Of a DNA stretch of 64,000 nucleotides, positions 4,595 to 26,115 are shown in pieces. The notes beneath the pieces are model-generated. The model did no database searches. It saw only the letters and a list, made by a program, of their open reading frames with translations, and had not been told where the DNA came from. Origin of the DNA: Sphingobium sp. WTD-1. Lineage in GTDB: Bacteria > Pseudomonadota > Alphaproteobacteria > Sphingomonadales > Sphingomonadaceae. How positions within the stretch are numbered: the first letter of the stretch is position 1; each line of letters opens with the position of its first letter. The stretch is from NCBI RefSeq assembly GCF_030128825.1, contig NZ_CP119127.1:4205501-4269500 (forward strand). The letters are read 5' to 3'. The translations under genes were made by a program, and so were the position numbers.

Positions 4595-4598
4595 AAAA

Positions 4599-5246: not shown

Positions 5247-5255
5247 GTCCGTTCC

Positions 5256-5837: not shown

Positions 5838-5838
5838 A

Positions 5839-8041: not shown

Positions 8042-8331
8042 GCCGGCATGCTCCGGGCCTGCGACACGATCTTGATAGCCTGGCTGAGCGAGTAGCTCCC
8101 ATCGACGCGGACGACCAGCGTGGCCCGCCAGCCATTGGCATAGCGGGCATGGATGCGGCGCAGCCGGCTTTGGGCGTCGAACAGAGCGTGCGCCTCGATC
8201 GGCTCACCGTCGCCGCCGCGCTGCCCGCACTCGCGCAGCTTGTCAGCGACCATGGTCATATCCTCGCCGGGGGCGACGACGACCTTCTGCCAAGCGCGAT
8301 TGCCGCGCTTACGGGGAGAGCTTGCCTTCAT
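8038..8331 (-). CDS. Small phage protein between spike and gp46
   Basis: 97 residues from ATG 8331, which overlaps the spike gene stop (8328). The N-terminus is basic (MKASSPRKRGNRAWQKVVV), followed by EDMTMVADKLRECGQRGG and a strand-rich end (WRATLVVRVDGSYSLSQAIKIV). No family is recognised with certainty. Position and coupling put it in the baseplate module of Mu-like phages of alphaproteobacteria, so a structural or assembly role is likely. Confidence 0.6.
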   Translation of the reverse strand: MKASSPRKRGNRAWQKVVVAPGEDMTMVADKLRECGQRGGDGEPIEAHALFDAQSRLRRIHARYANGWRATLVVRVDGSYSLSQAIKIVSQARSMPA

Positions 8332-9967: not shown

Positions 9968-10160
9968 GGTCCGCCCCCAGGGTGCGGCGCACGCGATCTC
10001 CGGCCCGCCGCATTTCGTCCCAGGCGCGGCCGGTCTCACGGGCGGCATCGCCATGCAGGTCATGGGCGCGACGATAGTTCGCCTCTGCCAGCTGTAGGGC
10101 GCACGCCGCCGTGCGGATCGTGTCCAGCTGCGTTTCCCAGCGCGTCTCGACCTCAGCCAT
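9960..10160 (-). CDS. Small phage protein between gp43 and gp44 homologues
   Basis: 66 residues, predicted helical and highly charged (MAEVETRWETQLDTIRTAAC, then RETGRAWDEMRRAGDRVRR). It overlaps both neighbours by 8 bases, which argues that it is translated. No family is recognised; it may be a tail assembly accessory. Confidence 0.55.
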   Translation of the reverse strand: MAEVETRWETQLDTIRTAACALQLAEANYRRAHDLHGDAARETGRAWDEMRRAGDRVRRTLGADHG

Positions 10161-12926: not shown

Positions 12927-13120
12927 TCGTCCTTTCGCTCTTCATTTATGCGCTGGGCCTGGCTCAGCCAGAACTCCAGCTCGGTATCCGTGAGGGCCAT
13001 GGCATCGGCCGGTGACCAGCCGCAGCGGAAGACCAGATCGCCTAGGCAATCACGCCAGTCGCTGGGCCATGCTCGGTAAAAAAACCAAGGCACTCGTCCA
13101 GGCGGTCGAGGTCGACCCAA
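12923..13120 (-). CDS. Tail assembly chaperone frameshift extension (E' / GT-type)
   Basis: This frame has no good start of its own. It lies in the -1 frame relative to the upstream chaperone gene (13042-13362) and overlaps its 3' end, where a run of seven T residues occurs. Slippage there would join 95 zero-frame residues to 51 residues of this frame (YRAWPSDWRDCLGDLVF to INEERKDE), giving a 146-residue fusion. The motif DCLGDLVFRCGWSP, then ELEFWLSQAQRINEE, resembles the GpE'/T extension proteins that recruit the tape measure protein. Its stop overlaps the tape measure start as ATGA. Confidence 0.8.
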   Translation of the reverse strand: MGRPRPPGRVPWFFYRAWPSDWRDCLGDLVFRCGWSPADAMALTDTELEFWLSQAQRINEERKDE

Positions 13121-13362
13121 TCGATCTTCTGGATCACGACCATCATCTGGCCGGTGACGCTGGCCAGCATTTCATGCGTGCGCTGCGCCGCATTGCCTTC
13201 GCTGCTGGCGATCACGCGCTCCACGCCGGTCAGGCGGCGAAGCTGCAGCTTCTCCAGCAGCGTCTCCTGCTCGCCGACCTTGTATTTGACCGGATAGATC
13301 AGGTCATAGCTGTTGTCCGGGTTCAGATAGGACGGGCGAGCCGGCGCGGTCGGCGCGGTCAC
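13042..13362 (-). CDS. Tail assembly chaperone (Mu gp41 / P2 GpE family)
   Basis: 106 residues from GTG 13362, chosen because AGAGGAAG lies 5 bases upstream and GTGA overlaps the tube gene stop. The body (DLIYPVKYKVGEQETLLEKL, LRRLTGVERVIASSEGN) matches the tail assembly chaperone family found between tube and tape measure. The last residues before the stop (LDECLGFFTEHGPATGVIA) include the slippery codons. It binds the tape measure protein during tail assembly. Confidence 0.88.
   Translation of the reverse strand: MTAPTAPARPSYLNPDNSYDLIYPVKYKVGEQETLLEKLQLRRLTGVERVIASSEGNAAQRTHEMLASVTGQMMVVIQKIDWVDLDRLDECLGFFTEHGPATGVIA
13078..13084 (-). other. Programmed -1 frameshift site (seven T) in the tail chaperone gene
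   Basis: On the coding strand the heptamer is T TTT TTT in the zero frame (codons GGT TTT TTT ACC), a perfect X XXY YYZ slippery site. It is exactly 95 codons from the GTG start. The -1 frame beyond it is open for 51 codons up to the tape measure gene. Such shifts at this locus are conserved across long- and contractile-tailed phages. Confidence 0.85.
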
Positions 13363-13727
13363 GATACTTCCTCTGCCGCCTTGCCATACAGGACGCACTT
13401 GGCCTTGCCGTCGCTGGTTCCCATCGGCGGGCGACCTTCGCTATAGGCCTGGCGCACGACGAAGCTCTTACCATTGTCGAACTCGATCGTGGCAGTGGCG
13501 CCGGTGATCAGGCCGAAACTGGTGGCGCTGAAGCCGCCCTTGGTGAGCGCGTTGAATTCCAGCTTGCTGGGCTTCACCGGCCCTTCCTGATAGGCGCCTT
13601 CCTCATAATCGCCTTCGACCGGCGTGCGGCTGGGGCCGCCGGGGTCCAGCACCGTATCGCCCGCCGTCTCGTAGAGAACGCCGTCGATCTTGACCTTTGC
13701 TTTGCCGATGACCTGGTTTTTCGCCAT
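13359..13727 (-). CDS. Tail tube protein (Mu gpM-like)
   Basis: 122 residues. MAKNQVIGKAKVKIDGVLYE is the conserved start of Mu gpM-type tube proteins, followed by PSRTPVEGDYEEGAYQEGPV and KLEFNALTKGGFSATSFGLI. It forms the inner tube of the contractile tail and follows the sheath gene after 36 bases, the usual order. Confidence 0.9.
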   Translation of the reverse strand: MAKNQVIGKAKVKIDGVLYETAGDTVLDPGGPSRTPVEGDYEEGAYQEGPVKPSKLEFNALTKGGFSATSFGLITGATATIEFDNGKSFVVRQAYSEGRPPMGTSDGKAKCVLYGKAAEEVS

Positions 13728-13763
13728 GTCCTATTTCCTTCTAAAAGCCCTTTGAACGCTCGC

Positions 13764-15194
13764 TCAGAGGATGAATTCGATGCGGGTGGCGAGCTGCAGC
13801 AGGCCGTTGACCGTGTCGGGGGTCATCAGCGTGTTGAGCTGGCGGCGGTTGGTCGCGTCGCGCTCGATCACCAGATTGGCGATGAAGCCGTCGACATCCT
13901 CCATCAGCTCGGCCTCTTCCCACTCGCGGGCGAGCGCGATCGTCTCGGCATGGACCGACGCGATCGCGTCCTCGGTCAGCTTCGCGCGCGGGAATTTCTC
14001 GGCCATGCGCACGCGATAGCTGTAGCGATAATAGCCCAGCGTCGCGGTGGTCTGGACGTCGAGATAGCTGTCATCGTCGAAGCCGGCGGCGCTCACCTGG
14101 TAGCAGCTGATCAGCCGCTCGATCGCGACATTGCCCTCCGCGTTGACGCGGAAGGTGGAGATGCCATCCTTCAGCAGCAGCTCGCGCTCGGTGCGGATGA
14201 AGCGATGCTCCGGGCGCGGCGCGCGAATCCCCGCGACCACCAGGTCGGTCAGCGGCCGGGCCGGGTCGATCTGCAGATAATAGGCCGCCACCGAGGCAAA
14301 GGCGGCCGCGACGATCCAGGGCGGCGACGGCAGATTATAGCCGCCGACGATCGTCGCATGCTTGCCATTGCGCGTCGCGCCAAAGCTCGACAGGGTCGAA
14401 AAGCTGCCCGACAGACCGAAATAGGCGCGCCCTTCGATCTGGCGCACCGGTCCCCAGCGATCCTCCAGGTCGGTGTCGATCACCGACATGTTCGCCGCAT
14501 CGTTCACGCCGATCGCGATGGTCTGGTACCAGGCGTCGCCCAGGCTCGCGACCAGGCTGGTAAGATCGGGGTTCGTCGCGCCTGCCGCCATCGGCACGAT
14601 CGTCGCGGTCACGCCGGCCGGCAGAGATTCCCCGTCGAAATAATTGGCGCGCAGGTCGATGTCGTTGCCCGCCGTGCCCTTGTGCCGACAGGTCAGGGTG
14701 ACGACGGCGGCCGCTGCCGAAGCGGTCACTGGCAGGTCGGGCAGCGCATTGATCGCAGCGGCGACGGCGGTGGCGATCGTGCTGGCGCTCGCGCCGCTGG
14801 CGACGGCTACCGGCACGCGGACACCAGCGATCATCAGCGCCAGTGTGCCGGCGGCGGTGGACGGCCCGCCGATCGTGATCGAGCCGGTGGCCGCAACACC
14901 CGCCGCGTTGTCGGCGATGGGCATCGCCCAAAGTTCGACCTGGCTGCTGGCGGTCAGCGCGGCCGCCACCATCGCCGCCAGGATCGAGCCGCGCCCTGCC
15001 AGGGTTGCGCCCTGCTCGGCGCGGGTCACCCGCACCGGCGCCGAGACGCTGGCCGCGCCGATGCACTGGCCGATGAGAGGGATTTTCTGCAAGGCGGGCG
15101 GCAGGCCCTGGCGCGCGCGATTATTGGCGATCTCGACCTGCGATCCGGGGACGCGCTGGTTGGACGAAATCTTGTCGAAAGCAAAGCTGGCCAT
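13764..15194 (-). CDS. Contractile tail sheath protein (Mu gpL-like)
   Basis: 476 residues, the Mu gpL size. It opens ASFAFDKISSNQRVPGSQVE and continues KIPLIGQCIGAASVSAPVRV, the conserved sheath N-terminus that in Mu reads 'I..N.RVPG'. The C-terminal part (GISTFRVNAEGNVAIERLIS, YRVRMAEKFPRAKLTEDA, GFIANLVIERDATNRRQLN) is the conserved sheath core that binds the tube. The middle is an Ala/Thr-rich variable insertion. It is intact, so a contractile tail could be built. Confidence 0.93.
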   Translation of the reverse strand: MASFAFDKISSNQRVPGSQVEIANNRARQGLPPALQKIPLIGQCIGAASVSAPVRVTRAEQGATLAGRGSILAAMVAAALTASSQVELWAMPIADNAAGVAATGSITIGGPSTAAGTLALMIAGVRVPVAVASGASASTIATAVAAAINALPDLPVTASAAAAVVTLTCRHKGTAGNDIDLRANYFDGESLPAGVTATIVPMAAGATNPDLTSLVASLGDAWYQTIAIGVNDAANMSVIDTDLEDRWGPVRQIEGRAYFGLSGSFSTLSSFGATRNGKHATIVGGYNLPSPPWIVAAAFASVAAYYLQIDPARPLTDLVVAGIRAPRPEHRFIRTERELLLKDGISTFRVNAEGNVAIERLISCYQVSAAGFDDDSYLDVQTTATLGYYRYSYRVRMAEKFPRAKLTEDAIASVHAETIALAREWEEAELMEDVDGFIANLVIERDATNRRQLNTLMTPDTVNGLLQLATRIEFIL

Positions 15195-15412
15195 CAGGCG
15201 TCTCCATCCTTGGCGGGTTCGGCCGCCTTCTTGTCCCCGGCCGCGACGCTCTTGGCATCGGTCGGCTCAATGTCGCCCTGGTCCAGGCGGCGCTGCCAAT
15301 AGGCGGACCAGGCCAGGCCTTTGCCGTGCGGCGGCAGCGGTGCGCCCCCGTCATCGGGGTCGCGGACCTGAAGGCCCGCCTTGGGCCGGAAATAGCGAAG
15401 CTGGTCGGTCAT
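15194..15412 (-). CDS. DUF2635-type small phage protein
   Basis: 72 residues from ATG 15412, overlapping the upstream stop by 4 bases. YFRPKAGLQVRDPDDGGAPL, then HGKGLAWSAYWQRRLDQGDI, is the DUF2635 signature (VRDP, G..V....YW.RRL.DGDV) found just upstream of Mu sheath genes. The C-terminus is Lys/Ala-rich. The role is unknown; it is tail-module associated. Confidence 0.85.
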   Translation of the reverse strand: MTDQLRYFRPKAGLQVRDPDDGGAPLPPHGKGLAWSAYWQRRLDQGDIEPTDAKSVAAGDKKAAEPAKDGDA

Positions 15413-16068
15413 GACGGATCGGTCTCCTGAAGGGCGATATGGTCGGTGGCGTCGGCGTGCGGATCGTCGGGCAGCTGGGCGCCTGGCACGATCGGATCGG
15501 CGTCGACGGGATGCGGCGTGCCGAACGCAGGCACGTCCCAATTCACATGCAGGGCGGCCAGCTCTTCGTCGCTGTCGTCGCCAGCCAGCTGGATGGTGAA
15601 GCGACAGCCGAGCATCATCGCATGGCCGGACAGGTTGAGGTCCTGCATCGCCTTGCTGCGCTTGAGCGGCTGACAATCGCCGACCGTCATCGGCGCGACC
15701 AGGTCGAGGCCCAGCATCTGCCGATCGAGCAGCGCCGCCGCGCCCAGCGCCAGCCGATAGCTGCCCGGCTCTTTCGCCGGATTGGGGCCACCATGGCGGT
15801 TGGCCGCTTCATCGGGCCGGGCGCTGCTATGGACGACAACCAGGCCGAAGGTGCCGGTGACGGCGATGACGCCATCGCCCCAGGACTCCGGATCGCTCCA
15901 GCCGGTGAAGCCGACCCAGGCGGCCGGGCCTTTGATCTCGCCGCGCTTGGCGGCGAGGTAGGCCTCCCAGTCGTCCGGCAGCGTATCGAGCCGGTTCCAG
16001 GCAAAGCCCAGCGCGTCCTGCATCGCCTTCAGCCGCGCCAGCACGGCCAGTTCGATCGCCGCGATCAT
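15409..16068 (-). CDS. Mu gp37-like tail protein (DUF1834)
   Basis: 219 residues. MIAAIELAVLARLKAMQD opens the gp37-type fold; later RLALGAAALLDRQMLGLDL and MQDLNLSGHAMMLGCRFTIQL are characteristic. It sits between the gpG-like morphogenesis gene and DUF2635/sheath and overlaps both by 4 bases. It probably works in head-tail connection or tail termination. Confidence 0.82.
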   Translation of the reverse strand: MIAAIELAVLARLKAMQDALGFAWNRLDTLPDDWEAYLAAKRGEIKGPAAWVGFTGWSDPESWGDGVIAVTGTFGLVVVHSSARPDEAANRHGGPNPAKEPGSYRLALGAAALLDRQMLGLDLVAPMTVGDCQPLKRSKAMQDLNLSGHAMMLGCRFTIQLAGDDSDEELAALHVNWDVPAFGTPHPVDADPIVPGAQLPDDPHADATDHIALQETDPS

Positions 16069-16592
16069 TGCTCGGCCCCCAGATAGTCGGCGACATGACC
16101 GCGAACGCCTTCCATCCCGTCCGACGACAGGCCGATGAACTGGCGCTGCGGGGTGCTGGCCTTGCGGCGATGCGCCTTGACGGTGACCGTGATCGGCTCG
16201 GCCAGCGTCACGCCGAACACTTCGCGCATGACGCGCTTATGGCTGGCGACCTGCTCGACACTCGACCAGCCATCATTATGACGGCGCGCGTAGACGACGT
16301 TGGTGCCCGCCTCGACGCGGGTGCGGCTGGCGACATGGGTGATCGACCCGCGCAGGCGGCGGCTGTCGGTCAGCGTCTTGCCCCCGGTCGCGATCGCGCG
16401 CTGCGACTTGTCCCAGGGAATGCCGGCGGGCGAATGCTCGCCGTCGAAATTCTCCTCGATGTCGACCTCGATCTCCATGCCGAGGATGTCCATCAGCGGG
16501 GTGAGGTCGCCCAGCCGGTCGAGCAGCAGCGACAGATCGCGCTGGACCTCGACCAGGCCGTCGATCGACAGGGACATGCCGGCGCCGGCCAT
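16065..16592 (-). CDS. Virion morphogenesis protein (Mu gpG / tail completion S family)
   Basis: 175 residues. The motif SPAGIPWDKSQRAIATGGKTLTDSRRLRGSI contains the family hallmark (GxPW..L...T, then G..LTDSG.L..SI); the segment AGTNVVYARRHNDGW follows, and PQRQFIGLSSDG is the conserved 'P.R.F.GLS' near the end. In Mu it is gpG, involved in tail completion and joining. It is coupled to the DUF1320 gene upstream, the two sharing position 16592. Confidence 0.9.
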   Translation of the reverse strand: MAGAGMSLSIDGLVEVQRDLSLLLDRLGDLTPLMDILGMEIEVDIEENFDGEHSPAGIPWDKSQRAIATGGKTLTDSRRLRGSITHVASRTRVEAGTNVVYARRHNDGWSSVEQVASHKRVMREVFGVTLAEPITVTVKAHRRKASTPQRQFIGLSSDGMEGVRGHVADYLGAEQ

Positions 16593-17005
16593 CAGAATTC
16601 ACCCAGGGAATCGCGGCTGAAGGTCCGCTGGCGATCGGGCACGATGACGGCACCGGTCCGCGACGGGATATCCTGCTTGCCCTGGTCGATCTTGATCAGG
16701 CCCCTGGAAATATCCTTGAGCTGGTCGAGCGCACGGGTCTCGCGCTTCTCGATCGCCTCGGGCGGCGCCTTGTGCAGCTTGGCATAGGCGATTTCGCAGA
16801 CCAGTTCGGTCAGCAGCGGCGGCAAGGCGCGGCCGGGTGCCGGCGCATAATATTTCGCGACATAGCCTTCGGCGATCGACGAGGCGGTCTGCAGCTTAAC
16901 GTTGATCGCGGCGATCGCCTGCGCGTTCCAGCCGTCCTGGTCGGTGAGCTGCACCAGCTCATCTTCGCCATAGCGCGCTTTCATATCTTCGGCGGTGGCG
17001 AACAT
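16592..17005 (-). CDS. Mu gp36-like head-tail protein (DUF1320)
   Basis: 137 residues. MFATAEDMKARYGEDELVQL is the signature N-terminus of DUF1320 (Y.T..D...R.GE.EL.QL.D). It continues with ASSIAEGYVAKYYAPAPG and LTELVCEIAYAKLH. In Mu, gp36 lies between capsid accessory gp35 and tail genes. It is the first gene after a 156-base gap that contains two hairpins. Confidence 0.9.
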   Translation of the reverse strand: MFATAEDMKARYGEDELVQLTDQDGWNAQAIAAINVKLQTASSIAEGYVAKYYAPAPGRALPPLLTELVCEIAYAKLHKAPPEAIEKRETRALDQLKDISRGLIKIDQGKQDIPSRTGAVIVPDRQRTFSRDSLGEF

Positions 17006-17040
17006 GGCGGTCTGCAGGCTCCTGTGATGAAATGGTCCGG

Positions 17041-17106
17041 GACGGGGTCACAGGGCAGCAGCCCCGTCCCGGTTGGGCCTGCCGCCCGGTGAGCGGGGCG
17101 GCAGGC
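17041..17106. repeat. Two tandem hairpins between head and tail genes
   Basis: The first stem is GACGGGG / CCCCGTC (17041-17068). The second is GCCTGCCGCCC / GGGCGGCAGGC (17077-17106, 8-base loop). No clean T-run follows on the minus strand, so they may be RNA processing or attenuation structures separating head from tail expression rather than simple terminators. Confidence 0.45.
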
Positions 17107-17161
17107 GGTAAAAGGTCCATGAAAGCCCGCGCGGAGAGGTGGCGCAGACAGTCGGAGGGAC

Positions 17162-17761
17162 CTATTCGTCGGCGGCCTTGGCCTTGGCGGCGGGCTTCTT
17201 GGCCTTGTCGAGCGCGGCCTGAAGGTCCGCGATCTGCGCCTGGCGATCGCTGGCGGCACCCTCCACCTTCACCAGTTCGTCGCTCAGCTGCTGATTGGCC
17301 GCCTGCAACGCCGCGACCTGGCTCGTCGCGCCTTCCAGATCGTCGCGCGCTGCCGCCAAATCGCCAGTCAGTCGTCGGACCTGGTCCTGAGCAATAACCA
17401 GCTGGTCGTTGGCCACGCCGAGTGCGGCCGATCGCTCGTCGAGCATATGCCGCAGGCTGCCGACGTCCTGGGAAGCATCGACCGGCGCCGGGGGGATGGC
17501 CTCAAGTTCGACGCCCGGCGCCGCATCAATGAACGCCTGCAGCTGCTCGTCGGTAACTTCAGCCGTCAGTTCCGGCACGACCATGAACTGACCATTGTCC
17601 TGGCCGACCATGACCGTGACGGCCGGGTCTTCCAGCAGTTGACGCAACTGCCCGACGCCGAGCGCCAGGATGGCCACGGTCAGCGGCGCGCCGACCGGGA
17701 AGGATAGCCCAGCCCGCCGATAAGGCGTGCGGGCGGCGGTGAGGAGGAGCGCGCCGTTCAT
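17162..17761 (-). CDS. Mu gp35-like capsid-associated protein
   Basis: 199 residues from ATG 17761, which overlaps the capsid stop (TAATG). The first 60 residues (LLTAARTPYRRAGLSFPVGA, then LGVGQLRQLLEDPAVTVMVG) form the Mu-like 'FluMu N-terminal' domain (HI1506 type). The rest is a long coiled coil (residues about 100-190, SLRHMLDERSAALGVANDQL to QAQIADLQAALDKAKK) ending in a Lys/Ala tail. Its role in Mu is unproven. Confidence 0.82.
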   Translation of the reverse strand: MNGALLLTAARTPYRRAGLSFPVGAPLTVAILALGVGQLRQLLEDPAVTVMVGQDNGQFMVVPELTAEVTDEQLQAFIDAAPGVELEAIPPAPVDASQDVGSLRHMLDERSAALGVANDQLVIAQDQVRRLTGDLAAARDDLEGATSQVAALQAANQQLSDELVKVEGAASDRQAQIADLQAALDKAKKPAAKAKAADE

Positions 17762-18663
17762 TAGGCGAGCCACGCCGAGGGGAGTACCCGCGCCGTGTCC
17801 TTCCATTCGTTGGTCTCGCCGTCGGCGCCCAGCTCGTTATTGACGATCTTGAGGGCCGCGCTTTCGAGCGAGGGCGCACAGAGGAGCAGCGGCTTCGCGC
17901 CGGTCAGAAGGCCGAGCGGGCGGCCATAGTCGCCCTTCATGCCCATCAATGCGGCGCGGGCAGCGGCATAGTTGGCGGCAGTCAGCGGCTGCTTGCTGCC
18001 CCAGGCGAATTGCCAGAAGCCGAAACCGACATTGTAGCGCGCGTCGGCGCCGTAGACGAACTTCTTGCGCCAGAAGACATTTTCGTCGTTCGGGTTGTCC
18101 TTCGTGATGAACTGGACCTTCTTGCGCTCCTGGAAGATGATCGGCTTCAGTACGCGGCTGACGTCGATCAGGAACCAGGGCGCGCCGGCACCGCCATCGG
18201 TATTAGCGACCGAAGTGACGTTGCCATTGGCATCCAGCACCGGATGGTCGGTGTCGAAATAATATTGGCCGTCATAGCAGGGCGTCGTGAAGCCCGCCTT
18301 CATCAGGGCGAACACCAGTTCGCAGGGATGCGCGGCGGCGGCGCGGCCCATCTCGGTAAAGAGCATGCCATACTGACCGAGATTGTCGTCCTCGATGTCG
18401 TTGCGCTCGACCTCGATCGTGTCTTCCCAATCCTTGTTCTTGATCGTGTAGTCGGACTGGCTGATCTGGTTGAGAACACGGTCGCCCAGCCATTCGCGCA
18501 TGCCGCGCACCTGGTTGAGCCAGCCATATTCATTCTTGCCGGTGGAAGACGGGACCACGCTGGCGATTTCGAGATGTTGCGGCGGCGCCATGCCGAGGCC
18601 ACCCCGGAAGGCGGCGGAAAAGCCGGTCCCGAGCGTGCGCAGATTGCCGGTATTGATTTCCAT
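17761..18663 (-). CDS. Major capsid protein (Mu gpT family)
   Basis: 300 residues from ATG 18663, with AAGGA about 12 bases upstream. The N-terminus (MEINTGNLRTLGTGFSAAFR) and HLEIASVVPSSTGKNEYGWL, followed by REWLGDRVLNQI, are hallmarks of the Mu gpT major head protein. YDGQYYFDTDHPVLDANG and NVGFGFWQFAWGSKQPLT are also conserved. The protein is full length and undamaged, although the terminase and portal needed to fill the capsid are missing from the prophage. Confidence 0.93.
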   Translation of the reverse strand: MEINTGNLRTLGTGFSAAFRGGLGMAPPQHLEIASVVPSSTGKNEYGWLNQVRGMREWLGDRVLNQISQSDYTIKNKDWEDTIEVERNDIEDDNLGQYGMLFTEMGRAAAAHPCELVFALMKAGFTTPCYDGQYYFDTDHPVLDANGNVTSVANTDGGAGAPWFLIDVSRVLKPIIFQERKKVQFITKDNPNDENVFWRKKFVYGADARYNVGFGFWQFAWGSKQPLTAANYAAARAALMGMKGDYGRPLGLLTGAKPLLLCAPSLESAALKIVNNELGADGETNEWKDTARVLPSAWLA

Positions 18664-18685
18664 GTTGTGCGGTTCCTTGCTGGGA

Positions 18686-19096
18686 TCAGGCGAAGGCGAC
18701 CCAGACGCCATCGGCGTCCACGTCGACGATTTTGCCGGCCTTGGATCGGGTGCCCCCCCCATCGGTCTTGGCGACCGTCTGGTTGTCGACGATGTAACAA
18801 TCGTCCCCGATCTCGGCGATGGTGATGGCGTCGGTCGACGCGCTGTTCTCGAAGGGGAACACCCCCTTTTCGACGCGCACCGACTGATCGCCGGCAGCGC
18901 CGCCGCTATTGTCGACCGTGTTCATGGCAACGCCATCGGCGATCTGGCCGGTCGCGGTGGCGCCGCCAGTGGCGAAGCCGGTGGCGTTCAGCATCACGAT
19001 GGTCCCCGCCAGAATTTTCGTGGCGGCCATCTTGCGGCTGAACTGGACACCGTCGCGGCGGCGCGTCTTCGCGCGCGGGGTGCTGATAGCGGTCAT
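18686..19096 (-). CDS. Capsid cement / decoration protein
   Basis: 136 residues. The pattern GVQFSRKMAATKILAGTIVM, then GQIADGVAMNTVDNSGGAAGDQSVRVEKGVF (split as GQIADGVAMNTVDNSGG and DQSVRVEKGVFPFENS), and IGDDCYIVDNQTVAKT is that of small beta-rich cement proteins encoded next to the capsid gene of Mu-like phages. It lies directly upstream of the major capsid gene with 22 bases between them, and overlaps the mosaic frame by 4 bases. Confidence 0.8.
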   Translation of the reverse strand: MTAISTPRAKTRRRDGVQFSRKMAATKILAGTIVMLNATGFATGGATATGQIADGVAMNTVDNSGGAAGDQSVRVEKGVFPFENSASTDAITIAEIGDDCYIVDNQTVAKTDGGGTRSKAGKIVDVDADGVWVAFA

Positions 19097-19830
19097 GCGG
19101 CGGCTCCCTTCTGCAGCTTCTTCTCGGCGAGCATCGCTTCCTCACTGACCCCCATCAGGGCGCAGGCCGCGATCTCGTCGGCGCTGAGCTTGTCGGCACC
19201 ACCCGTGCCCGGTGCCGGGTCGGTGCCCAGGTCGGCGCCGGCAGCGACCACGACGGGCGCCGCACCGACAAAGTCGCGCCAGAACGTCTCGATATCGATC
19301 GCGCGCGAACCGTAATCTTCAGGCTTGGCCAGCGGCGTGTTGCCGGTATAGGCGCCATCAAAGGCCGGATGCTTGGCGATCGCATCGCAGAAGTCGCGAA
19401 AGCCGCGCTCTATCGGCTTGGACTGGCCGCGATAGGGCTTGGCCCAATGGACGGTGATGCCCAGCGCGGTCAGCACGCCCAGAGGGTCTTCATCCCTGAT
19501 CTTGAAGCGGAAACGCGTCCTGGCGCCGCCGGTCAGCCATTTGGAGGCGAAGGCGCGGCCATTATCGGAGAGCAGCCCCTTGGGGATTCCCCATTTCTGG
19601 AAGAGGTCGGCGAACACCAGGCGCGCAGTCACCATGTCCTCGCTCTCGGCCAGCAGCACCGTCATCTCGGCCGCGATAACCGTCCGGTCGCGATCGTCAT
19701 GCCTCAGCACTTCGGCCACCGTCCGCGCGACCCGTGCGTCCACGCCGGCCAGCGCCGCCGGCAGCGTAGCCCGCTGCGGCGCTTCGAACGCGAAGGCGAA
19801 CTGGTCGGCAGAGGCGCGCGATTTAGCCAA
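19093..19830 (-). pseudogene. In-frame mosaic: early DNA-binding protein + MuA transposase core + capsid protease tail
   Basis: 245 codons made of three unrelated parts. Residues about 1-57 (DQFAFAFEAPQRATLPAALA to DRDRTVIAAEMTVLLA) match the start of an early protein usually encoded just before transposase A in alphaproteobacterial Mu-like phages. Residues about 58-179 (FQKWGIPKGLLSDNGRAFAS, YRGQSKPIERGFRDFCDAI, GNTPLAKPEDYGSRAIDIET) are the MuA rve core from around the second catalytic Asp onward; the N-terminal DNA-binding domains and first catalytic Asp are absent. Residues about 180-245 (FVGAAPVVVAAGADL, LSADEIAACALMGVSEE) match the C-terminus of the Mu gpI protease/scaffold, the normal neighbour of the capsid gene. 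Collinear order implies two internal deletions that kept the frame. Transposase activity is not expected. Confidence 0.8.
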
Positions 19831-20098
19831 GGCGGACTCCCCGGCGCTCCAGTTCCGCCATCAGGGAAGATGTTGCGACATGGGCGAGGTCATCGCCGAC
19901 CAGCCGAAGGTTGCGACTGGAGCCGGCTTGCCCCCGACGCAAATAGCCGTCGCGCACCAGCGCATCGACCACCCGAAAGGCATTGCCCTTGGATTTGACA
20001 CCCATGGCTGCCGCGATCTCCGTCAGCGCCGGACAAACGCCCGTCGAGGAAATCCGATCGCGGATGAAATCATAGGCGCAGCGCTGCGACGGCGTCAC
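19823..20098 (-). CDS. LexA-like winged-helix DNA-binding protein
   Basis: 91 residues from GTG 20098 (overlapping the previous stop as GTGA). TPSQRCAYDFIRDRISSTGVCPALTEIAAAMGV, read as YDFIRDRISSTGVCPALTEI and then AAAMGVKSKGNAFRVVDALV, is the LexA N-terminal winged-helix pattern (P...EIA...G..S......L..L...G.I). There is no protease domain. It probably regulates phage genes. It overlaps the mosaic frame by 8 bases. Confidence 0.72.
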   Translation of the reverse strand: MTPSQRCAYDFIRDRISSTGVCPALTEIAAAMGVKSKGNAFRVVDALVRDGYLRRGQAGSSRNLRLVGDDLAHVATSSLMAELERRGVRLG

Positions 20099-20241
20099 TT
20101 TGCGCCTCCCTGGCCGCGATGCGGTGGCAGGCTGCCGAGGACACGGGCAACTGCATCGGCCGACAGCGCATCCGGCGCCGGCTTTACGTTGGAGGTCGGC
20201 CCGAAATAGCCGTACAGCGTGATGTAGCGAGGCTTGCGCAT
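20095..20241 (-). CDS. Small phage early-operon protein
   Basis: 48 residues (MRKPRYITLYGYFGPTSN start, PPHRGQGGAK end) between two coupled genes, with a GTGA overlap downstream and a 2-base gap upstream. No family is recognised. It is supported only by operon packing and its start context. Confidence 0.5.
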   Translation of the reverse strand: MRKPRYITLYGYFGPTSNVKPAPDALSADAVARVLGSLPPHRGQGGAK

Positions 20242-20243
20242 GC

Positions 20244-20462
20244 TCAGTCCCTCATCCACCAAAAACGGTCGTTGGCCTGATCCTCGGGCTGGATAGTCAG
20301 TTCGCGCGCCATCAGGCTGGCAGTCCGCTCGACCACTTCGCTCTGGGCGCGATGCGCCAGGGCGCGCTTGCGACGGCGCAGTTCGACGATGGTGCAGCCC
20401 ACCGCCAGGGCCTCCTCAAATTCAGTGCGGGCGCGACGGAAGCGATCGGCATCGGTGATCAT
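20244..20462 (-). CDS. Small phage early-operon protein
   Basis: 72 residues, helical and charged (FRRARTEFEEALAVGCTIVE, then RRRKRALAHRAQSEVVERTA). It overlaps the methyltransferase stop by 4 bases (ATGA). No family is recognised; it could be a small DNA-binding or regulatory protein. Confidence 0.55.
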   Translation of the reverse strand: MITDADRFRRARTEFEEALAVGCTIVELRRRKRALAHRAQSEVVERTASLMARELTIQPEDQANDRFWWMRD

Positions 20463-21166
20463 GCGGCCAACTCCAGTTGGGGAAGCACCCCCACGCGCCG
20501 CAGATCGAAGTCACGGTCGATCAGCTTCTGGGCCGGGGTGCGGGGCGGAATGATGCGGGTTATCGTGTCGCGGGTCGGCGCGCGCAGGTCCCAGACCAGC
20601 CACATGTAATCGATCGTGCCGCGCTTCCACGCGGTCGGGCGCTTCGTCTTGGGATCGAGCGCGGCCAGTGCCGTGCCCGGCGGCATCGAGGGGCGATCGC
20701 AAAACTCCAGCTTCAGCTGGGGCGGATATTCCTGAAAAAAGCCGTAACGGCCTTCGCAGGCCCGCCAGCGCAGCGGGACCAGGATGCACACCAGACCGCT
20801 CGCCAGCATCAGGGCGCGGCGCACGAACCGCTCGGCGATTCCCGGCGCGCAGCCATAGGGAATATTGGCCACGATGCTCAGCCGCGCCCAATGTTCCAGC
20901 ATGCACGTCTGTTCGCCCAGGAAGTCATGCTCGCCCAGGAACAGGTGGGCCGGCTCGGTCGGCAGCCAGCGATTGACCAGGTCGGTGCCCATCGCTTCGA
21001 ACCCGGCTGCTGCGAAGGTGCAGGGGATCGTCCCAAGGCCGCAGCACGGGTCCCAGACCAAATCCTGCGGGTCGAAATCGACCATCTGCATCAGCGCGCG
21101 GACGGTCCATGTCTGTTCGACATACCAGTCCTGGGGATGGCGATCGGGGCGATCGGCGCCGGCCAT
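20459..21166 (-). CDS. Phage adenine-specific DNA methyltransferase-like protein
   Basis: 235 residues from ATG 21166, overlapping the previous stop as TAATG. The SAM-binding motif I is VWDPCCGLGTIP, followed by FEAMGTDLVNRW (motif II, acidic after the strand). The catalytic motif IV position reads SIVANIPYG, a variant of (N/D)PP(Y/W). It is shorter than restriction-associated enzymes and has no nuclease neighbour, so it looks like an orphan phage methyltransferase protecting the genome or altering expression. Target specificity cannot be read. It belongs to the early operon with ParB-like and small DNA-binding genes. Confidence 0.72.
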   Translation of the reverse strand: MAGADRPDRHPQDWYVEQTWTVRALMQMVDFDPQDLVWDPCCGLGTIPCTFAAAGFEAMGTDLVNRWLPTEPAHLFLGEHDFLGEQTCMLEHWARLSIVANIPYGCAPGIAERFVRRALMLASGLVCILVPLRWRACEGRYGFFQEYPPQLKLEFCDRPSMPPGTALAALDPKTKRPTAWKRGTIDYMWLVWDLRAPTRDTITRIIPPRTPAQKLIDRDFDLRRVGVLPQLELAA

Positions 21167-21381
21167 TATGCGGCGCCCTTTTCGGCGAGATGCCGGCGAC
21201 CGGCATCGGTCAGCGTCCAGACCTTGCTGCTGTGCAGCCGTCCATTGGCACCATAGGCAATGGCCTCGTCGACCAGCTTGAGCTGCATCAGCTTGACCAG
21301 GTCGATGTTCGACCAGGGCGCGATGATCATCCGCTGCGCGAGAAGCTCCAGCAGCCTTGTTTGCTTGGCGGTCAGTTTCAC
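21166..21381 (-). CDS. Small winged-helix-like phage protein
   Basis: 71 residues from GTG 21381, chosen because GGGAGG stands 5 bases upstream and GTGA overlaps the previous stop. KLTAKQTRLLELLAQRMIIA, then SSKVWTLTDAGRRHLAEKGA, resembles a small winged helix (the L..L......T..G...L pattern). It may be a regulator of early genes. Confidence 0.6.
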   Translation of the reverse strand: MKLTAKQTRLLELLAQRMIIAPWSNIDLVKLMQLKLVDEAIAYGANGRLHSSKVWTLTDAGRRHLAEKGAA

Positions 21382-21704
21382 AGACGCCTCCCATCGGCAT
21401 AGGTGACGCGCGCGCCATCGGCCGCGATCGCCACGGTGGACATGGATTGTGCGGGGGTGCGGGGCGCGCGGCGCAGATGGTCCTGGCAATCGCGGAAGGC
21501 GACGCCATAGGCCCGGTTGAGCTGTTCCTGATCGTCGCGCGGCGCCCGACAATGGGCAGCGCGGGCCGCGTTATAGGCAGTCAGCACCGCCTGGCGCAGT
21601 TCCAGTGGAAGCGTGAACCAGTGATCCTTGCAGAACCAGCCCCGGCTGATCTGCGCGCGGCACCCCTCGGCCGAGCAACTGGTATGGTGGCGGGCGCCGA
21701 TCAC
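21378..21704 (-). CDS. Small zinc-binding-type phage protein
   Basis: 108 residues from GTG 21704. The N-terminus has a Cys/His cluster, HHTSCSAEGCRAQISRGWFC, followed by KDHW, suggesting a zinc knuckle (C-x4-C-x8-C-x2-H). The middle is helical (LELRQAVLTAYNAARAAHC). It is coupled to both neighbours by overlapping stops and starts. The function is unknown. Confidence 0.6.
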   Translation of the reverse strand: MIGARHHTSCSAEGCRAQISRGWFCKDHWFTLPLELRQAVLTAYNAARAAHCRAPRDDQEQLNRAYGVAFRDCQDHLRRAPRTPAQSMSTVAIAADGARVTYADGRRL

Positions 21705-21907
21705 CAGCGCCTCCCCACGAACATGTCGGCCGGATCGATCGGAGCCGAGGTGGGCGCAGCGCCACCATGCGGGCGCAACTTTTCGGCGAGCGAGGCCCAG
21801 CGTTCAGCGTCGTTGCTCTCTTTGCTGGCTTCCGCATGGGCAGCTGCGAACAGGAACAGCTTGGCGCGCTCCCAATCCGTCAGTTTGATGGTCAGGGGCG
21901 TCGTCAT
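21701..21907 (-). CDS. Small phage early-operon protein
   Basis: 68 residues. It opens MTTPLTIKLTDWERAKLFLF and continues with an acidic/basic helical stretch (AEASKESNDAERWASLAEKL). The start overlaps the ParB-like gene stop (ATGA). No family is recognised. Confidence 0.55.
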   Translation of the reverse strand: MTTPLTIKLTDWERAKLFLFAAAHAEASKESNDAERWASLAEKLRPHGGAAPTSAPIDPADMFVGRRW

Positions 21908-22905
21908 TTGCCGATCCCTTCTTCCTCGATCCGCGCGTCCAGCGCGGCACGCAGCGCCAGCAAGGCGCTCGGCTTCATCGTTTTCACGATCTCGGGTGCG
22001 ATCCGCGCCTGGTCGCCGGCCGACAGGCGGGCGAGGTTCGACGTGGTGTTGTTCATATACTTGGTCGCGCCGGTCGGCGCCGCACTTGCCTTGGGCGTCG
22101 ACAGGCCCAGCCCGTCCATCGCCTGGGCCAGCGTCATGTCCGGCGTTTCGACCAGGCTTTCGATCAGCGCCTGGCGATTGCCGAGGTCCACGATCGAGGC
22201 GATGTCGCGTAGGGCTGAGGCATTCTCGCCGACCGTCGGATGCGTCGCCAGGCCCCGCCACAGGTCGGGAAAAGGCGCGATCAGCGCGCGGTGGAGGGCG
22301 AGGTCCTTCTTGACGCTCTCAATCGACATTCCGATCGCTGAGGCGACCTCATCACGCCAGCCGTATACGCGGGTAAAGTTTACCCGCGTATTTTCCGCCT
22401 CTGCCTCGACCAGATCATCGTCGCGCTCAACGCCCGGTGCCTTGGCGCTTTTGGCATCCCAGCGAGCGCGGATTGCAATCTGCTCGGGTGACAGATCGCC
22501 ATGCTGCTCTTTCAGGCGGGCTTCAGCGGCATCGGCTATGGCACGCACGAAACTCGCCCGCTCCAACGGGCTGCGCGACGGACGCGCAGCATTTTCCATC
22601 GCTTCGATCTGAAGCGCGTCGGCGCCGGCCTCGACTGCGATCGCGTCGATCACGGCCAGGCCGACCATGCGCGCGCCTTCAAGGCGGTGATGGCCCGCGA
22701 CCAAGGTCCACGGTGCTGCGGCGCGCGGCCCACTGGCACGAACGATGATCGGCACGATCTGGCCATCCTCCGCCATTAACTGGCCCATGGCCTGCGCCTT
22801 GTCGGAATGGAAGGCGCCCAGTCGGTCGCCGATCAGGATTTCGTTCGGGGATAGCGCCAGAACGGCGCCAGCTGTTTCCACGACTTTCTTGGCTGCAGTG
22901 GCCAT
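21904..22905 (-). CDS. ParB/Srx-fold protein of the prophage early region
   Basis: 333 residues. The N-terminal ParB domain is clear: LSPNEILIGDRLGAFHSDKA, DGQIVPIIVRASG, then WTLVAGHHRLEGARMVGL, whose GxxR-type box reads AGHHRLEGA. A central helix-turn-helix follows (SAIGMSIESVKKDLALHRAL). The C-terminal third (ALRAALDARIEEEGIGK end) is helical. No parA is present, so plasmid-like partition is unlikely. In Mu-like phages such proteins lie between Ner and the transposase genes and may be DNA-binding regulators or CTP switches. It is the second gene of the leftward operon. Confidence 0.85.
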   Translation of the reverse strand: MATAAKKVVETAGAVLALSPNEILIGDRLGAFHSDKAQAMGQLMAEDGQIVPIIVRASGPRAAAPWTLVAGHHRLEGARMVGLAVIDAIAVEAGADALQIEAMENAARPSRSPLERASFVRAIADAAEARLKEQHGDLSPEQIAIRARWDAKSAKAPGVERDDDLVEAEAENTRVNFTRVYGWRDEVASAIGMSIESVKKDLALHRALIAPFPDLWRGLATHPTVGENASALRDIASIVDLGNRQALIESLVETPDMTLAQAMDGLGLSTPKASAAPTGATKYMNNTTSNLARLSAGDQARIAPEIVKTMKPSALLALRAALDARIEEEGIGK

Positions 22906-22907
22906 GT

Positions 22908-23168
22908 TTATCGGGCCTTCTCAATTTTACGGTGCGTGGAGGAGCGAGTTTCGCTAACGTCCGAACATTCGGATTTCGAAAAATCGGATATAGGACGCTC
23001 GATGGCTGCTTTGATTGCCTTTTCAACCCGCGCACTTGCGCGCCCCCGAAGGAGGTCATGCACGGATTTCGCTGGGAGTTCGTACCGGGCTTCGAAAGCG
23101 GAAACCGTCACAAATCTCTTGCGCAGCTCGGCCTTCACATCCTCCGGATGCATCTTAGAAAGTCTCAT
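22908..23168 (-). CDS. ner: Ner-like transcriptional regulator
   Basis: 86 residues from ATG 23168; GGAAGG stands 5 bases upstream, and a longer frame from 23228 has no such signal. MHPEDVKAELRKRFVTVSAF, then ARYELPAKSVHDLLRGRASA and VEKAIKAAI, is the Ner/Nlp helix-turn-helix (W/HPEDIKAALRK.G.....A...G). In Mu, Ner shuts down early and repressor promoters during lytic growth. It is the first gene of the leftward early operon and its start codon abuts the divergent repressor frame. Confidence 0.85.
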   Translation of the reverse strand: MRLSKMHPEDVKAELRKRFVTVSAFEARYELPAKSVHDLLRGRASARVEKAIKAAIERPISDFSKSECSDVSETRSSTHRKIEKAR

Positions 23169-23876
23169 ATGAACCTTCCGAAAGTTCGTTACGAGAAATC
23201 GGATAATCCGAATAACCGGAAGCGTCAAGCGCTCACCACCGAAAATCCGGTGGGTTTGCGAGTCGTGTCGCTTTTAGGAGAGCGGGATCTCGTTTGGCTG
23301 AGCCGGGAAACCGGAATTCCGGTTAGCACGCTAAGTGACAGCGTTCTGAAGGGCATTTCCAAGGCTGATAACGCGGTAAAAATAGCCGAGGCCTTCAAGG
23401 TCTCCGTGGACCATCTTCTCACGGGCCGGCCGGTCGAAAAGTTCGCGGCTGCCCCCGTGGCCGCTATTGACGATGCGGAATGGGAGGACGTGCCTCTCTT
23501 TGATCTGCGGAACGTCACCGACACCGGCAAAGGCGAACCTCAATCCTGGACGCCGTTCCGAAAGGACTGGCTTAATCGGTCGTTGGGAACGTCGTTCGAT
23601 CTATATTTGGTTCGGCTTCTCTCAGACTACCGCAGCCGCCTTGGCGATCGCGACCTTGCCGAAGGCGACCTTGTGTTTGTGAGGGAGATCACTCCTGGCG
23701 AACTCGCGGACGGCCATGTTGTGATTTGGCGGCGAGAGGGGGGACTGAAGGTTGCCCGCTACGCTCTTGCTCCGCGCGACCGCGAGGATGGAGATGTTAT
23801 CTATCCTGGCGAGGTCAGTGACGACCAGTTCGTCCCGATCTGCCGCATTTACGGCAAATATCTGCAAAGGATTTGA
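23169..23876 (+). CDS. Prophage repressor, XRE helix-turn-helix plus S24-like C-terminal domain
   Basis: 235 residues from ATG 23169; the true start may be GTG 23250, which would leave an untranslated operator. Residues about 28-90 form the DNA-binding domain (VVSLLGERDLVWLSRETGI, then STLSDSVLKGISKADNAVKI and VDHLLTG). The C-terminal half (FRKDWLNRSLGTSFDLYLVR, GDLVFVREITPGELADGHVV, VICRIYGKYL-like end) is the beta-barrel of LexA/CI-type repressors. The Ser/Lys dyad of an active S24 protease is not obvious. It is divergent from Ner, the standard Mu lysogeny switch. Confidence 0.82.
   Translation: MNLPKVRYEKSDNPNNRKRQALTTENPVGLRVVSLLGERDLVWLSRETGIPVSTLSDSVLKGISKADNAVKIAEAFKVSVDHLLTGRPVEKFAAAPVAAIDDAEWEDVPLFDLRNVTDTGKGEPQSWTPFRKDWLNRSLGTSFDLYLVRLLSDYRSRLGDRDLAEGDLVFVREITPGELADGHVVIWRREGGLKVARYALAPRDREDGDVIYPGEVSDDQFVPICRIYGKYLQRI
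23199..23211. promoter_or_regulatory. Candidate operator in the Ner/repressor control region
   Basis: The 13-bp palindrome TCGGATAATCCGA lies about 30 bases upstream of the Ner start. Related half-sites (TTCGGATTT and ATCGGATAT) occur at 22969-22990 inside ner, and AACCGGAATTCCGGTT lies at about 23309. Repeated ATCGGAT-type half-sites around a divergent repressor/Ner pair are expected of phage operators. Binding is inferred. Confidence 0.45.
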
Positions 23877-23878
23877 CG

Positions 23879-24049
23879 ATGGGGAATCTCAGTAGCTGTC
23901 CGCGATGTGGTCGGGCTGCCGGGAAGGGCGACACTCGCTGCGTGTCGTGTGGCGAAGATTTGAATATCCGATCACGCAGAGGCAGAGACATATTTGTCGG
24001 GCTCGGCGTGGTTCTGATAATTGCCATACTCGCCTACCAAGGTCAGTAA
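23879..24049 (+). CDS. Small zinc-ribbon membrane protein
   Basis: 56 residues: two CxxC pairs (SCPRCGRA and RCVSCGED) followed by a basic stretch and one membrane span (IFVGLGVVLIIAILAYQGQ). It starts 2 bases after the repressor stop, so it is probably cotranscribed in lysogens. Lysogen-expressed small membrane proteins sometimes modify the host envelope or exclude other phages; this is inference. Confidence 0.6.
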   Translation: MGNLSSCPRCGRAAGKGDTRCVSCGEDLNIRSRRGRDIFVGLGVVLIIAILAYQGQ

Positions 24050-24053
24050 GTTG

Positions 24054-24362
24054 ATGACCGCGATACCGGATGCACGGGCGAGCTTGATGAAGCTTGCCAT
24101 TCAAAATCGTCTCGGGATTTTGCTGATCGACGACGCAGGCGATTGCCCGATTAGGCCTACCCATAATCACCTGTTTGAAAAACCACGGCCGCCCTTATGC
24201 CTGGAGGATGGCGGCCCGCCCGCTTGGTGCGAAAAAGCGCCTTGCACATGCTCTGCGAAGCTAGGCGAACTACCTTCTGGCTATAGTAAAATTTCCGGAT
24301 TGGAAAAGCGATGGAGCGCTTTGAAGGCGGATTGGGAATCGCTGTACGGCACGATGGATTGA
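24054..24362 (+). CDS. Hypothetical prophage protein
   Basis: 102 residues from ATG 24054 (a longer frame overlaps the previous gene). ASLMKLAIQNRLGILLIDDA, then a Cys-containing middle (PLCLEDGGPPAWCEKAPCTC) that could bind metal. Composition is less GC-rich than neighbours. No family is recognised. It lies downstream of the repressor, the lysogeny-expressed side of the prophage. Confidence 0.5.
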   Translation: MTAIPDARASLMKLAIQNRLGILLIDDAGDCPIRPTHNHLFEKPRPPLCLEDGGPPAWCEKAPCTCSAKLGELPSGYSKISGLEKRWSALKADWESLYGTMD

Positions 24363-24425
24363 CGATTGTGTTCTCTTTATGTTCTCATTCGTTGATCGGC
24401 ACGAGTCGATGAATGGAGGAATGTC

Positions 24426-24668
24426 ATGGAGCATGCAGACCCGACCCAATTTGCGACGGAGAAGAAGCCGCCTTTTGGCCAATGGCTGATCCAGCAGGAA
24501 CAGCGCAGGGGAGCGATTGGCGAACTCGCCAGGCATGCCAAATCTGATCGCGGATTCCCGCGCAACGGCGACGTGAAGGATGCCTGGAAGCGGCTCAACA
24601 GCATCCAGGCCGAAGGCGACCTCTATGACGCGATGGAGGAAGCGGAGCTGGATTATCTGGCGCTATGA
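24426..24668 (+). CDS. YozE_SAM_like domain protein
   Basis: 80 residues. FGQWLIQQEQRRGAIGELAR, HAKSDRGFPRNGDVKDAWKR and AMEEAELDYLAL match the YozE SAM-like fold: the family pattern is F..WL..Q..R.D.IG.LA..A..D..FP, and ends A..EW. Such small proteins are common in phage and plasmid genomes of alphaproteobacteria, with unknown function. It overlaps the next gene by 4 bases (ATGA). Confidence 0.75.
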   Translation: MEHADPTQFATEKKPPFGQWLIQQEQRRGAIGELARHAKSDRGFPRNGDVKDAWKRLNSIQAEGDLYDAMEEAELDYLAL

Positions 24669-24991
24669 ACGTCCGGCGCCGCGATCCGGCTTATTGCTTT
24701 GCCGCGTTGGGCAGGCAGAGGGCGCCCTGGCGGCCGACCATACAACAGGCCAGGGCGGACGCGCTCGACGCTGGCTTTGGCAGCTGGGGCGACCATCTTC
24801 CTAAGCCGGGGACGGAACGGCGCATCTTCTTGGATGCGCTGGCCGAAATCTGGTCGACCCACGAACTGGTGCCGGCCGTCCCGCGCGAAGTGGTCGAACC
24901 ATCGGTGCGCAAGGAAGAAGTCGGCGACGACTATGCCGGCCTCTCCAGGATCGACCGGATCATCGCCCGCCGCGAAGGGAGAATGCGCTGA
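24665..24991 (+). CDS. Hypothetical prophage protein
   Basis: 108 residues, basic N-terminus (MNVRRRDPAYCFAALGRQRA), helical middle (ARADALDAGFGSWGDHL) and charged end (YAGLSRIDRIIARREGRMR). It is coupled to both neighbours by overlaps (ATGA, and a shared base at 24991). No family is recognised. Confidence 0.55.
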   Translation: MNVRRRDPAYCFAALGRQRAPWRPTIQQARADALDAGFGSWGDHLPKPGTERRIFLDALAEIWSTHELVPAVPREVVEPSVRKEEVGDDYAGLSRIDRIIARREGRMR

Positions 24992-25302
24992 TGGCCAGCC
25001 GCCGACGCAAGGGCGAGCGCCCGATCGACAAGAGCCAATTCTATCGGCCCTATGACGAGACCCACCCGGTTGCCCATGCCATCCGCACAGGATCGCGATG
25101 GTTTCTCGCCTGGCAGTTCCAGTACGGCTTCAGCGATGCGCGCCTGGTTAAACAGACCGGACTGGCGCCGGGCCGGCTGCGCCAGCTCGACCAGGACGCG
25201 CCCGTCCTGCAGGCGGAGGTCGACGCTCTGGCCGCCGCCTATGGCGTCCAGCCGTCCGACATCATAACATCGCTGCCTGATCCTGCGCTGCTGAAGGAAT
25301 AG
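24991..25302 (+). CDS. Small helix-turn-helix-like prophage protein
   Basis: 103 residues. LAWQFQYGFSDARLVKQTGL, then PGRLRQLDQDAPVLQAEVDA and YGVQPSDIITSLP, has the spacing of a helix-turn-helix followed by a helix similar to XRE proteins (LA.AYGV.P..I). It lies third in a four-gene rightward unit near the left prophage end. A regulatory role is possible. Confidence 0.55.
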   Translation: MASRRRKGERPIDKSQFYRPYDETHPVAHAIRTGSRWFLAWQFQYGFSDARLVKQTGLAPGRLRQLDQDAPVLQAEVDALAAAYGVQPSDIITSLPDPALLKE

Positions 25303-25305
25303 AGG

Positions 25306-25425
25306 ATGGACGGCGACCCGACCTGGAAGCGCTATCTGATCCTGGTCGAGGTCGCCGCCATCGCCATCCTGCCCCTCTGGTCGATCCTCGATCGACCCGC
25401 CCGCTGGCTCCTCGCGCACCTCTGA
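25306..25425 (+). CDS. Tiny single-span membrane protein
   Basis: 39 residues (MDGDPTWKRYLILVEVAAIA, then ILPLWSILDRPARWLLAHL) with one hydrophobic span. GAGG lies just upstream and it follows the previous stop by 3 bases. It may be a phage membrane effector or a chance frame; no homologue is recognised. Confidence 0.45.
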   Translation: MDGDPTWKRYLILVEVAAIAILPLWSILDRPARWLLAHL

Positions 25426-25897
25426 AAAAATCGGCCCAGTTCGCGCACAGCAAAGCGCGACCATATTCGGGCATTGCCACCCCAAAAGCCCCGATCTGCC
25501 TGACTTTTGCAAAAGTGGGACCATCAAACGGAACTGGGACCAGCCGGGTCCCACTTAATTTTCATCGATACGGCCCGGAAGCGGTTGCTCGGAACCCCGT
25601 AAAAGGCCTCTCAAAGGTCTGAAACGCCCATTTGAAGGGCTTTGAAGGCACGACGCGGCAAAACCTCTTACGGCCTTCCACGGACGGCTCACTCTAAATA
25701 CTCTGGTCCCAGCACTGTATATTTGGCCCACCACTCTAGACACAGGTCGGACCGCCTTGCCGAACGGCCAAATTTTTGAGCACCCCTCGAAAAGCGCCGA
25801 AACACGGGCCTTCTGTCCCACGCAATCCCGGATAGTCGCGGATAATCCCGCCTCATCGGCCCATTGGGATCACTCCAAACCCTTGTGTCCCCTTTCA
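25426..25897. other. Non-coding left end of the prophage
   Basis: About 470 bases without a convincing gene. It contains repeated GGGAC-type motifs (near 25515, 25534, 25707 and beyond) and an AT-richer patch, in keeping with transposase binding and bending sites. The last 25 bases form the element terminus. Confidence 0.6.
25687..25897 (-). repeat. Prophage left end with transposase-type binding repeats
   Basis: Read on the minus strand: L1 GGGACACAAGGGTTTGGAG within 25873-25897, L2 GGGACAGAAGGCCCGTGTT within 25803-25823, and L3 GGGACCAGAGTATTTAGAG within 25687-25713. These share G[GC]GAC[AC]..AG with the three right-end repeats. L1 and R1 occupy the same distance from their terminal TG. 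The wider spacing than at the right end is also a Mu feature (L1-L2-L3). Confidence 0.7.
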
Positions 25898-26115
25898 TTT
25901 GCCGCGACCTGCAACGCGCCGGTGACGCGACACCAGGGTCACGGCCACGCGCCAGTGACGCACCCATGAGGTGACAGGGACGCGACGACCGGGTCACGAC
26001 AAGGTCATGGCAAAGGGATCAGCGAGGACGGGTTCATGGCCAAGGGTAGACCAAATATCCTCCAACATTGGAAGGCCCTGCCCTATGCCGAGCCGCGGTC
26101 CCAACCACTTCCAAG
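25898..26115. other. Host intergenic DNA with clustered GTGAC/GTCAC motifs
   Basis: The target duplication TTTGC is followed by a stretch with repeated GGTGAC or its complement at 25921, 25937, 25954, 25969 and 25992, plus GGTCATGGC / GTTCATGGC at 26003 and 26032 each followed by AAGGG. No gene is seen. Before insertion this DNA was continuous with the region upstream of the SGNH gene, which itself carries GGGTCACTG at 3390. Confidence 0.5.

Follow-up and report, generated by a model that had tools for sequence, protein, structure and literature searches.

The window analysed here, a stretch of 64,000 nucleotides from contig NZ_CP119127.1 of Sphingobium sp. WTD-1, contains on its minus strand an open frame of 245 codons, which runs from a TTG start at 19830 to a TGA stop at 19093 and in which pieces of three phage genes are read as one. 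The segments of the frame and the joints between them were placed as follows:

19093..19830, minus strand: the fused open frame, from the reading of the ORF
19645..19830, minus strand: start of an early protein (residues 1-62), from the phrog_2345 model and 90% DNA identity to phage locus L010
19280..19652, minus strand: piece of the MuA core (residues 60-184), from family models and DNA alignment, with only D89 and E141 kept
19096..19282, minus strand: tail of a gpI-type protease (residues 184-245), from family models and DNA alignment
19645..19652, minus strand: joint 1, with 2-8 bases common to both stand-in parents, at most TGGCCGAG
19280..19282, minus strand: joint 2, with CTG common to the L015 MuA and the L025 protease

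The MuA part of the frame matched PF02914 at residues 42-185 (E 7e-30) and phrog_310 at residues 60-185; the early part matched phrog_2345, 'transcriptional regulator', at residues 13-62 (E 1e-4), and the protease tail matched phrog_328 at residues 185-238 (E 4e-5) and PF10123 at residues 182-232 (E 0.0018). The last of these scored 18.3 bits, below the curated family cut-off of 25.2, because only profile positions 275-327 of 330 were kept. DNA alignment to phage loci placed the three parts more securely than the family models: the early part (19830-19645) was 90% identical to L010, the MuA piece (19652-19280) 88% to L016 and 87% to L015, and the protease tail (19282-19096) 87% to L025. By these alignments of each third to intact phage proteins and DNA, the joints were fixed at ~19645-19652 and ~19280-19282, and the three-part homology is far beyond what chance would give; the shared frame alone is not. 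Translation of the fused frame would be possible, since its TTG start codon is the same in phage L013 and its TGA overlaps the ATG of the next gene (19093-19096), as in the related phage IMGVR_UViG_3300014663_000002 (hereafter G118; loci L010, L025 and L054).

None of the three pieces amounts to a working unit. The MuA piece keeps what we take to be, by motif and by comparison with MuA, the second and third catalytic acids (D89 and E141); the first, found in the DGH motif of the L015 MuA, is gone. Compared with the Mu transposase family, the fusion retains 124 of ~660 residues and is without the first catalytic acid, the first three core strands, and the N-terminal and C-terminal parts. Among the Pfam models, only PF02914 positions 35-186 of 221 and no PF09299 were found in it; P0006, a MuA relative with a whole core, matched PF02914 over 1-221 together with PF09299, and the L015 MuA has more than 300 residues ahead of its core. 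The frame consequently falls short of a Mu-type DDE transposase, which has three catalytic acids, an N-terminal end-binding part and a C-terminal barrel. With the Mu gpI-type protease (PF10123) it has the last 62 residues in common (83% identity to G118 over 181-245), whereas the body is absent, and a whole protease domain was not found (18.3 against 25.2 bits). When modelled with AlphaFold2, the fusion reached a mean pLDDT of 53.5 (45 sequences) and no residue at pLDDT of at least 90, against a mean of 77.5 for P0006 (30 sequences); relative to the P0006 model, the first three strands and everything after ~residue 190 were absent. The fusion product, if made, is thus predicted to hold no complete domain and should be without transposase or protease activity.

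The frame lies within a defective Mu-like prophage, of which the following features were assigned:

3461..25897, minus strand: defective Mu-like prophage, 22,437 bp, from TG...CA ends with a 5-bp repeat and from blastn and tblastn to G118
3456..3460, no strand: TTTGC, presumed target-site duplication, right side; host flanks ungapped against G016 and G018
25898..25902, no strand: TTTGC, presumed target-site duplication, left side; 5-bp repeat at the TG...CA end
3467..3536, plus strand: three right-end motifs GSGACMNRAG (3467, 3489, 3527), presumed transposase sites
25701..25891, minus strand: three left-end motifs GSGACMNRAG (25701, 25810, 25882)
18686..19096, minus strand: the gene that follows, for a head protein whose position suggests a cement or decoration type; phrog_1731, 98.5% to G118
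17761..18762, minus strand: major head protein gpT; PF10124 (E 3e-120) and phrog_371
4599..15194, minus strand: retained tail module, with sheath, tube, tape measure, baseplate hub and wedge, and fibre
19823..22905, minus strand: retained early genes, with a LexA-type HTH protein, a DNA methyltransferase, a ParB-like protein and small frames

A TG...CA pair with a 5- or 6-bp repeat was sought near the ends expected from homology, and a single solution was obtained. When the host flanks were joined, they matched uninterrupted sites in G016 (93%) and G018 (90%) with no gap at the insertion point, although the five target bases at these sites differ from TTTGC; G029 matched the joined flanks weakly (70%). 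The motif GSGACMNRAG, which was derived from these same two termini, had 10 matches in the window against 5.6 expected, and at least 10 in 4 of 100 shuffles. Six of the 10 fell within the terminal 76 and 197 bases of the prophage, and it is this placing at both ends, not the total of 10, that counts as evidence.

In addition to the features listed, head-tail genes are retained; phrog_1731, matched by the gene after the fused frame, is a 'virion structural protein' family of head and packaging. Identity to G118 ranges from ~98% (the head protein after the fused frame, and gpT) down to ~49% (a gene of the tail-fibre region, 5265-5837). The element thus carries the marks of a Mu-like prophage, namely TG...CA ends with a 5-bp target duplication and gpT-type capsid and contractile tail genes, but not everything needed to grow autonomously (MuA, MuB, terminase, portal, lysis), the G118 versions of which were unmatched in the prophage. 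We infer that transposition, DNA packaging and cell lysis should all be beyond it on its own, because the transposase, terminase, portal and the relative's known lysis gene have been lost. A tailocin, for which the kept tail module might speak, was considered and rejected, as the capsid is kept and the G118 endolysin is unmatched; a tailocin has its own lysis and has lost the capsid, and the lysis part was judged within the prophage.

Several further observations were made in the prophage. The interval from the tail-fibre gene to the right end holds two overlapping small genes (3523-4451, minus strand), a possible cargo pair; the first encodes 138 residues with a weak HEPN match (PF05168, 19.4 bits, cut-off 22) and the second 176 residues with no Pfam match. 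Neither was matched in PADLOC, and the 138-residue protein was unmatched among the phage records. Inside the left end, at 25516-25553, TGGGACC repeats and an inverted copy, partly common to L015, make up a candidate repressor operator. In a scan of 16500-24500, promoter-like sites numbered 2 (1.4 in shuffles) and terminator-like sites 8 (5.8 in shuffles); of all these sites, a single terminator-like one (23211-23199) is on the phage strand.

In related phages the three parts are separate genes in the same order. In all 44 of the loci at which a script found both parts (one record may count as several loci), the early gene and MuA shared a strand, and the early gene lay 1176-1248 bp upstream. 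G118 carries all three parts in this order on a single record, and so does contig C80 of G114, a genome of the same genus, in which ~16 kb separates the MuA piece from the protease tail. The G118 equivalents of the two gaps are 5327-6530 and 6901 to ~22122, so that ~1.2 kb and ~15.2 kb are gone; with them went most of MuA, a MuB-type protein, the endolysin, the terminase, the portal, a gpF-type protein and the protease body. When ten G118 proteins of the larger gap were tested, six matched named functions (a MuB-type DNA transposition protein, an endolysin, the small and the large terminase, a portal, and a gpF-type minor head protein), one belonged to a family of unknown function and three had no match. 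No tblastn match in the prophage was obtained for any of 17 G118 frames between 7560 and 21131, as called by a script; the gene caller, used on the window and on G118, was crude and put some frames on the wrong strand. The preliminary description had proposed that three collinear phage genes were fused by loss of the DNA between them, and the family models, the DNA alignments, the 44 loci, G118 and G114 all bear this out; its list of the lost genes is right in outline, as judged by the gap proteins of G118.

G118 is the same as the prophage in gene order, with DNA identity of 86% over window positions 9370-16068 and 91% over 16062-19282; its early gene, MuA and protease are separate, whereas in the prophage they are joined in one frame. 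It is 37.5 kb long, against 22.4 kb for the prophage, and its ends do not reach the prophage ends. Over the MuA piece kept in the prophage, G118 has only 72% DNA identity. The PF02914 Mu transposases of L015 and L016 are 93.5% and 86.3% identical to residues 60-183 of the fusion. The piece at 19280-19652, compared with L010 6530-6901, belongs to a different MuA lineage from the one carried by the phage that most resembles the prophage in its structural genes; the parent phage was therefore a mosaic. Three early genes of G118 (2708-2944, 4195-4695 and 4904-5149) had no match in the window, through either loss or natural variation. The same was true of the G118 tail frame 33436-33831, across which G119 and G121 align unbroken, and which is probably an extra of G118.

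The possibility of a genuine 245-residue protein family was rejected, as searches of proteins, of viral, phage and plasmid records and of same-genus genomes gave no full-length homologue; the frame is a scar and not a family, as first described. Of 139 proteins, the 120 that were listed included a single one covering the full query, the window's own; the next best reached 74%. None of 126 alignments over 82 loci joined two parts, at a threshold of 40% identity over 20 residues in each part. Coverage of at least 80% was reached in none of 35 phage records and none of 6 plasmid records, and in the 8 of 94 same-genus genomes with a match the parts lay apart in the 7 others. Apparent fusions of early gene and MuA in L071, L072, L074, L078, L083 and L087, with matches from residue 26-44, were rejected, the extra residues being ordinary MuA aligned by chance; a separate early gene lies upstream of MuA in L072, L074, L078 and L087. 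The MuA matches of L035 and L036 that reached residue 232-234 were likewise chance extensions into later MuA sequence. In the whole genome, the single match to the MuA family (PF02914) was the piece itself, and no helper transposase was found. P0017 of Sphingomonas paucimobilis (248 aa) appears by eye to be another broken MuA, out of frame after the core, and decay of MuA may be nothing unusual in its group.

To count shared bases at the joints, the true parent was replaced by stand-in relatives, and bases common to the scar and both parents were scored. At joint 1, 2-8 bp were shared over 15 parent pairs; the 8 bp, TGGCCGAG, occurred in one pair of the 15 (L014 early gene with L016 MuA), and pairs with L010, the closest early gene, shared 4-5 bp. 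Joint 2 shared CTG (3 bp), which is no more than chance, as runs of 3-4 occur a few bases away. Microhomology, which had been suggested as a check, was therefore met with at joint 1, to an extent that depends on the parent chosen, and not beyond chance level at joint 2. Such short or absent shared sequence fits illegitimate recombination, without proving it. The weakness of the microhomology counts against the scar reading, which does not, however, rest on it.

The preliminary description had held that two joints which both preserve the frame are improbable, and this was not borne out. Words shared by the early gene and MuA were in phase in 42-50% of cases (words of 3 to 8 bases; for 8-base words one other phase was equally common), and those shared by MuA and the protease in 42-55% (words of 3 to 7 bases). 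With 42-55% of shared words in phase, the chance of both joints being in frame is near 0.2 (~0.18-0.23 with the phase bias, 0.11 without it), and the fused frame had itself been picked for being in frame; in-frame joining is thus unremarkable, a matter of ordinary luck and codon-phase bias. In a simple simulation, two random non-overlapping deletions left only 0.37 kb between them in 3.5% of cases, a result that favours one compound event, weakly and after the fact.

Estimates of dN/dS were 0.16 for the early part to L010, 0.05 for the MuA piece to L015, and 0.25 for the protease tail to L025, against 0.32-0.50 between intact phages for the last; the next gene and gpT, ~98% identical to G118, gave 0.04. 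The low values of the pieces resemble those between intact phages and mostly record evolution before the joints, and no decay is visible either; they say little on selection since, because no relative is younger than the joint. The start region is kept, as is the overlap of the scar stop with the next start, and the compared structural genes are open over nearly their whole length; these features point either to a recent loss or to a continued importance of translation.

Taken as a whole, the fused frame is very probably a deletion scar in a decaying Mu-like prophage. A phage ~37 kb long inserted by transposition, as the ends, the 5-bp repeat and the uninterrupted site in relatives show. Illegitimate recombination, proposed here as the mechanism behind the observed joints and gaps, would then have removed two stretches, of ~1.2 kb and ~15.2 kb, with 0.37 kb of the transposase surviving between the two gaps and the frames meeting in phase by luck, aided by codon-phase bias. 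Given how near the two breaks are to each other, one compound event, consisting of two template jumps, would be as likely as two separate deletions.

That selection kept the frame, either because translation of the scar is coupled to that of the cement and capsid genes or because the fusion protein functions, would agree with the TGA/ATG overlap at 19093-19096 that G118 also has, with the conservation of the next gene and gpT (dN/dS 0.04) and with values for the scar pieces that are not raised. A comparison to a phage is no measure of selection after the joint, however; capsid genes without portal, terminase and protease should not build a working head, in-frame joints have a chance near 0.2, and there is neither a conserved copy nor a good predicted fold. 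We consider this reading highly improbable, and the earlier suggestion that the product is still made, or that selection spared downstream translation, is left without support. The element could also be a natural mini-Mu, a shortened element that was moved here, or can still be moved, by the transposase of a helper phage. Its ends are intact (TG...CA, three end motifs per side, identical 5-bp repeats) and its own transposase dead, as expected of a mini-Mu, but neither several copies nor a helper was found: there is one copy in the genome with no other MuA-family match, the whole frame is in 0 of 93 other same-genus genomes searched, and a full-length prophage decaying in place yields the same ends. 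A mini-Mu is therefore unlikely, if somewhat less so than a frame kept by selection.

A further conjecture draws on both of these. Loss of the middle could have made one long early-promoter transcript, which begins at the ParB-like gene, crosses the scar and continues into the head and tail genes, between working transposon ends; the element would then be a natural mini-Mu, open to being moved and packaged by a related helper phage, with the scar as a translational bridge, for which we see only a very slender chance. Prophages are repeat-prone in assemblies, and three prophage pieces might have been joined by an assembly artefact; the 6-contig genome, however, holds one MuA-family and one gpT match, with no confusing second copy found, and the site is inside a 5.08-Mb contig, which makes an artefact the least probable of these accounts. 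The deletion scar in a decaying prophage is the reading that we retain.

Such a scar looks like an ordinary one, in an incomplete prophage of a kind already known, with no sign of function. According to PMC7744054, incomplete prophages have lost lysis, portal and terminase genes and kept tail genes, the same as in this element; transposase genes are there enriched rather than lost, which counts against the scar as part of that pattern of decay. The present prophage departs from the incomplete or cryptic ones of that account in two ways: its transposase has gone as well, and its truncated genes are read in one frame.

The scar matters little alone, and it provides a clean case of a grounded transposable prophage, whose ends are exact, whose gaps are known and whose insertion site is uninterrupted in relatives. 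For annotation, a chimeric frame of this type may get named 'transposase' from its best domain match. In-frame chimeras arising by deletion should be no rarity where a genome combines high GC with strong codon phase.
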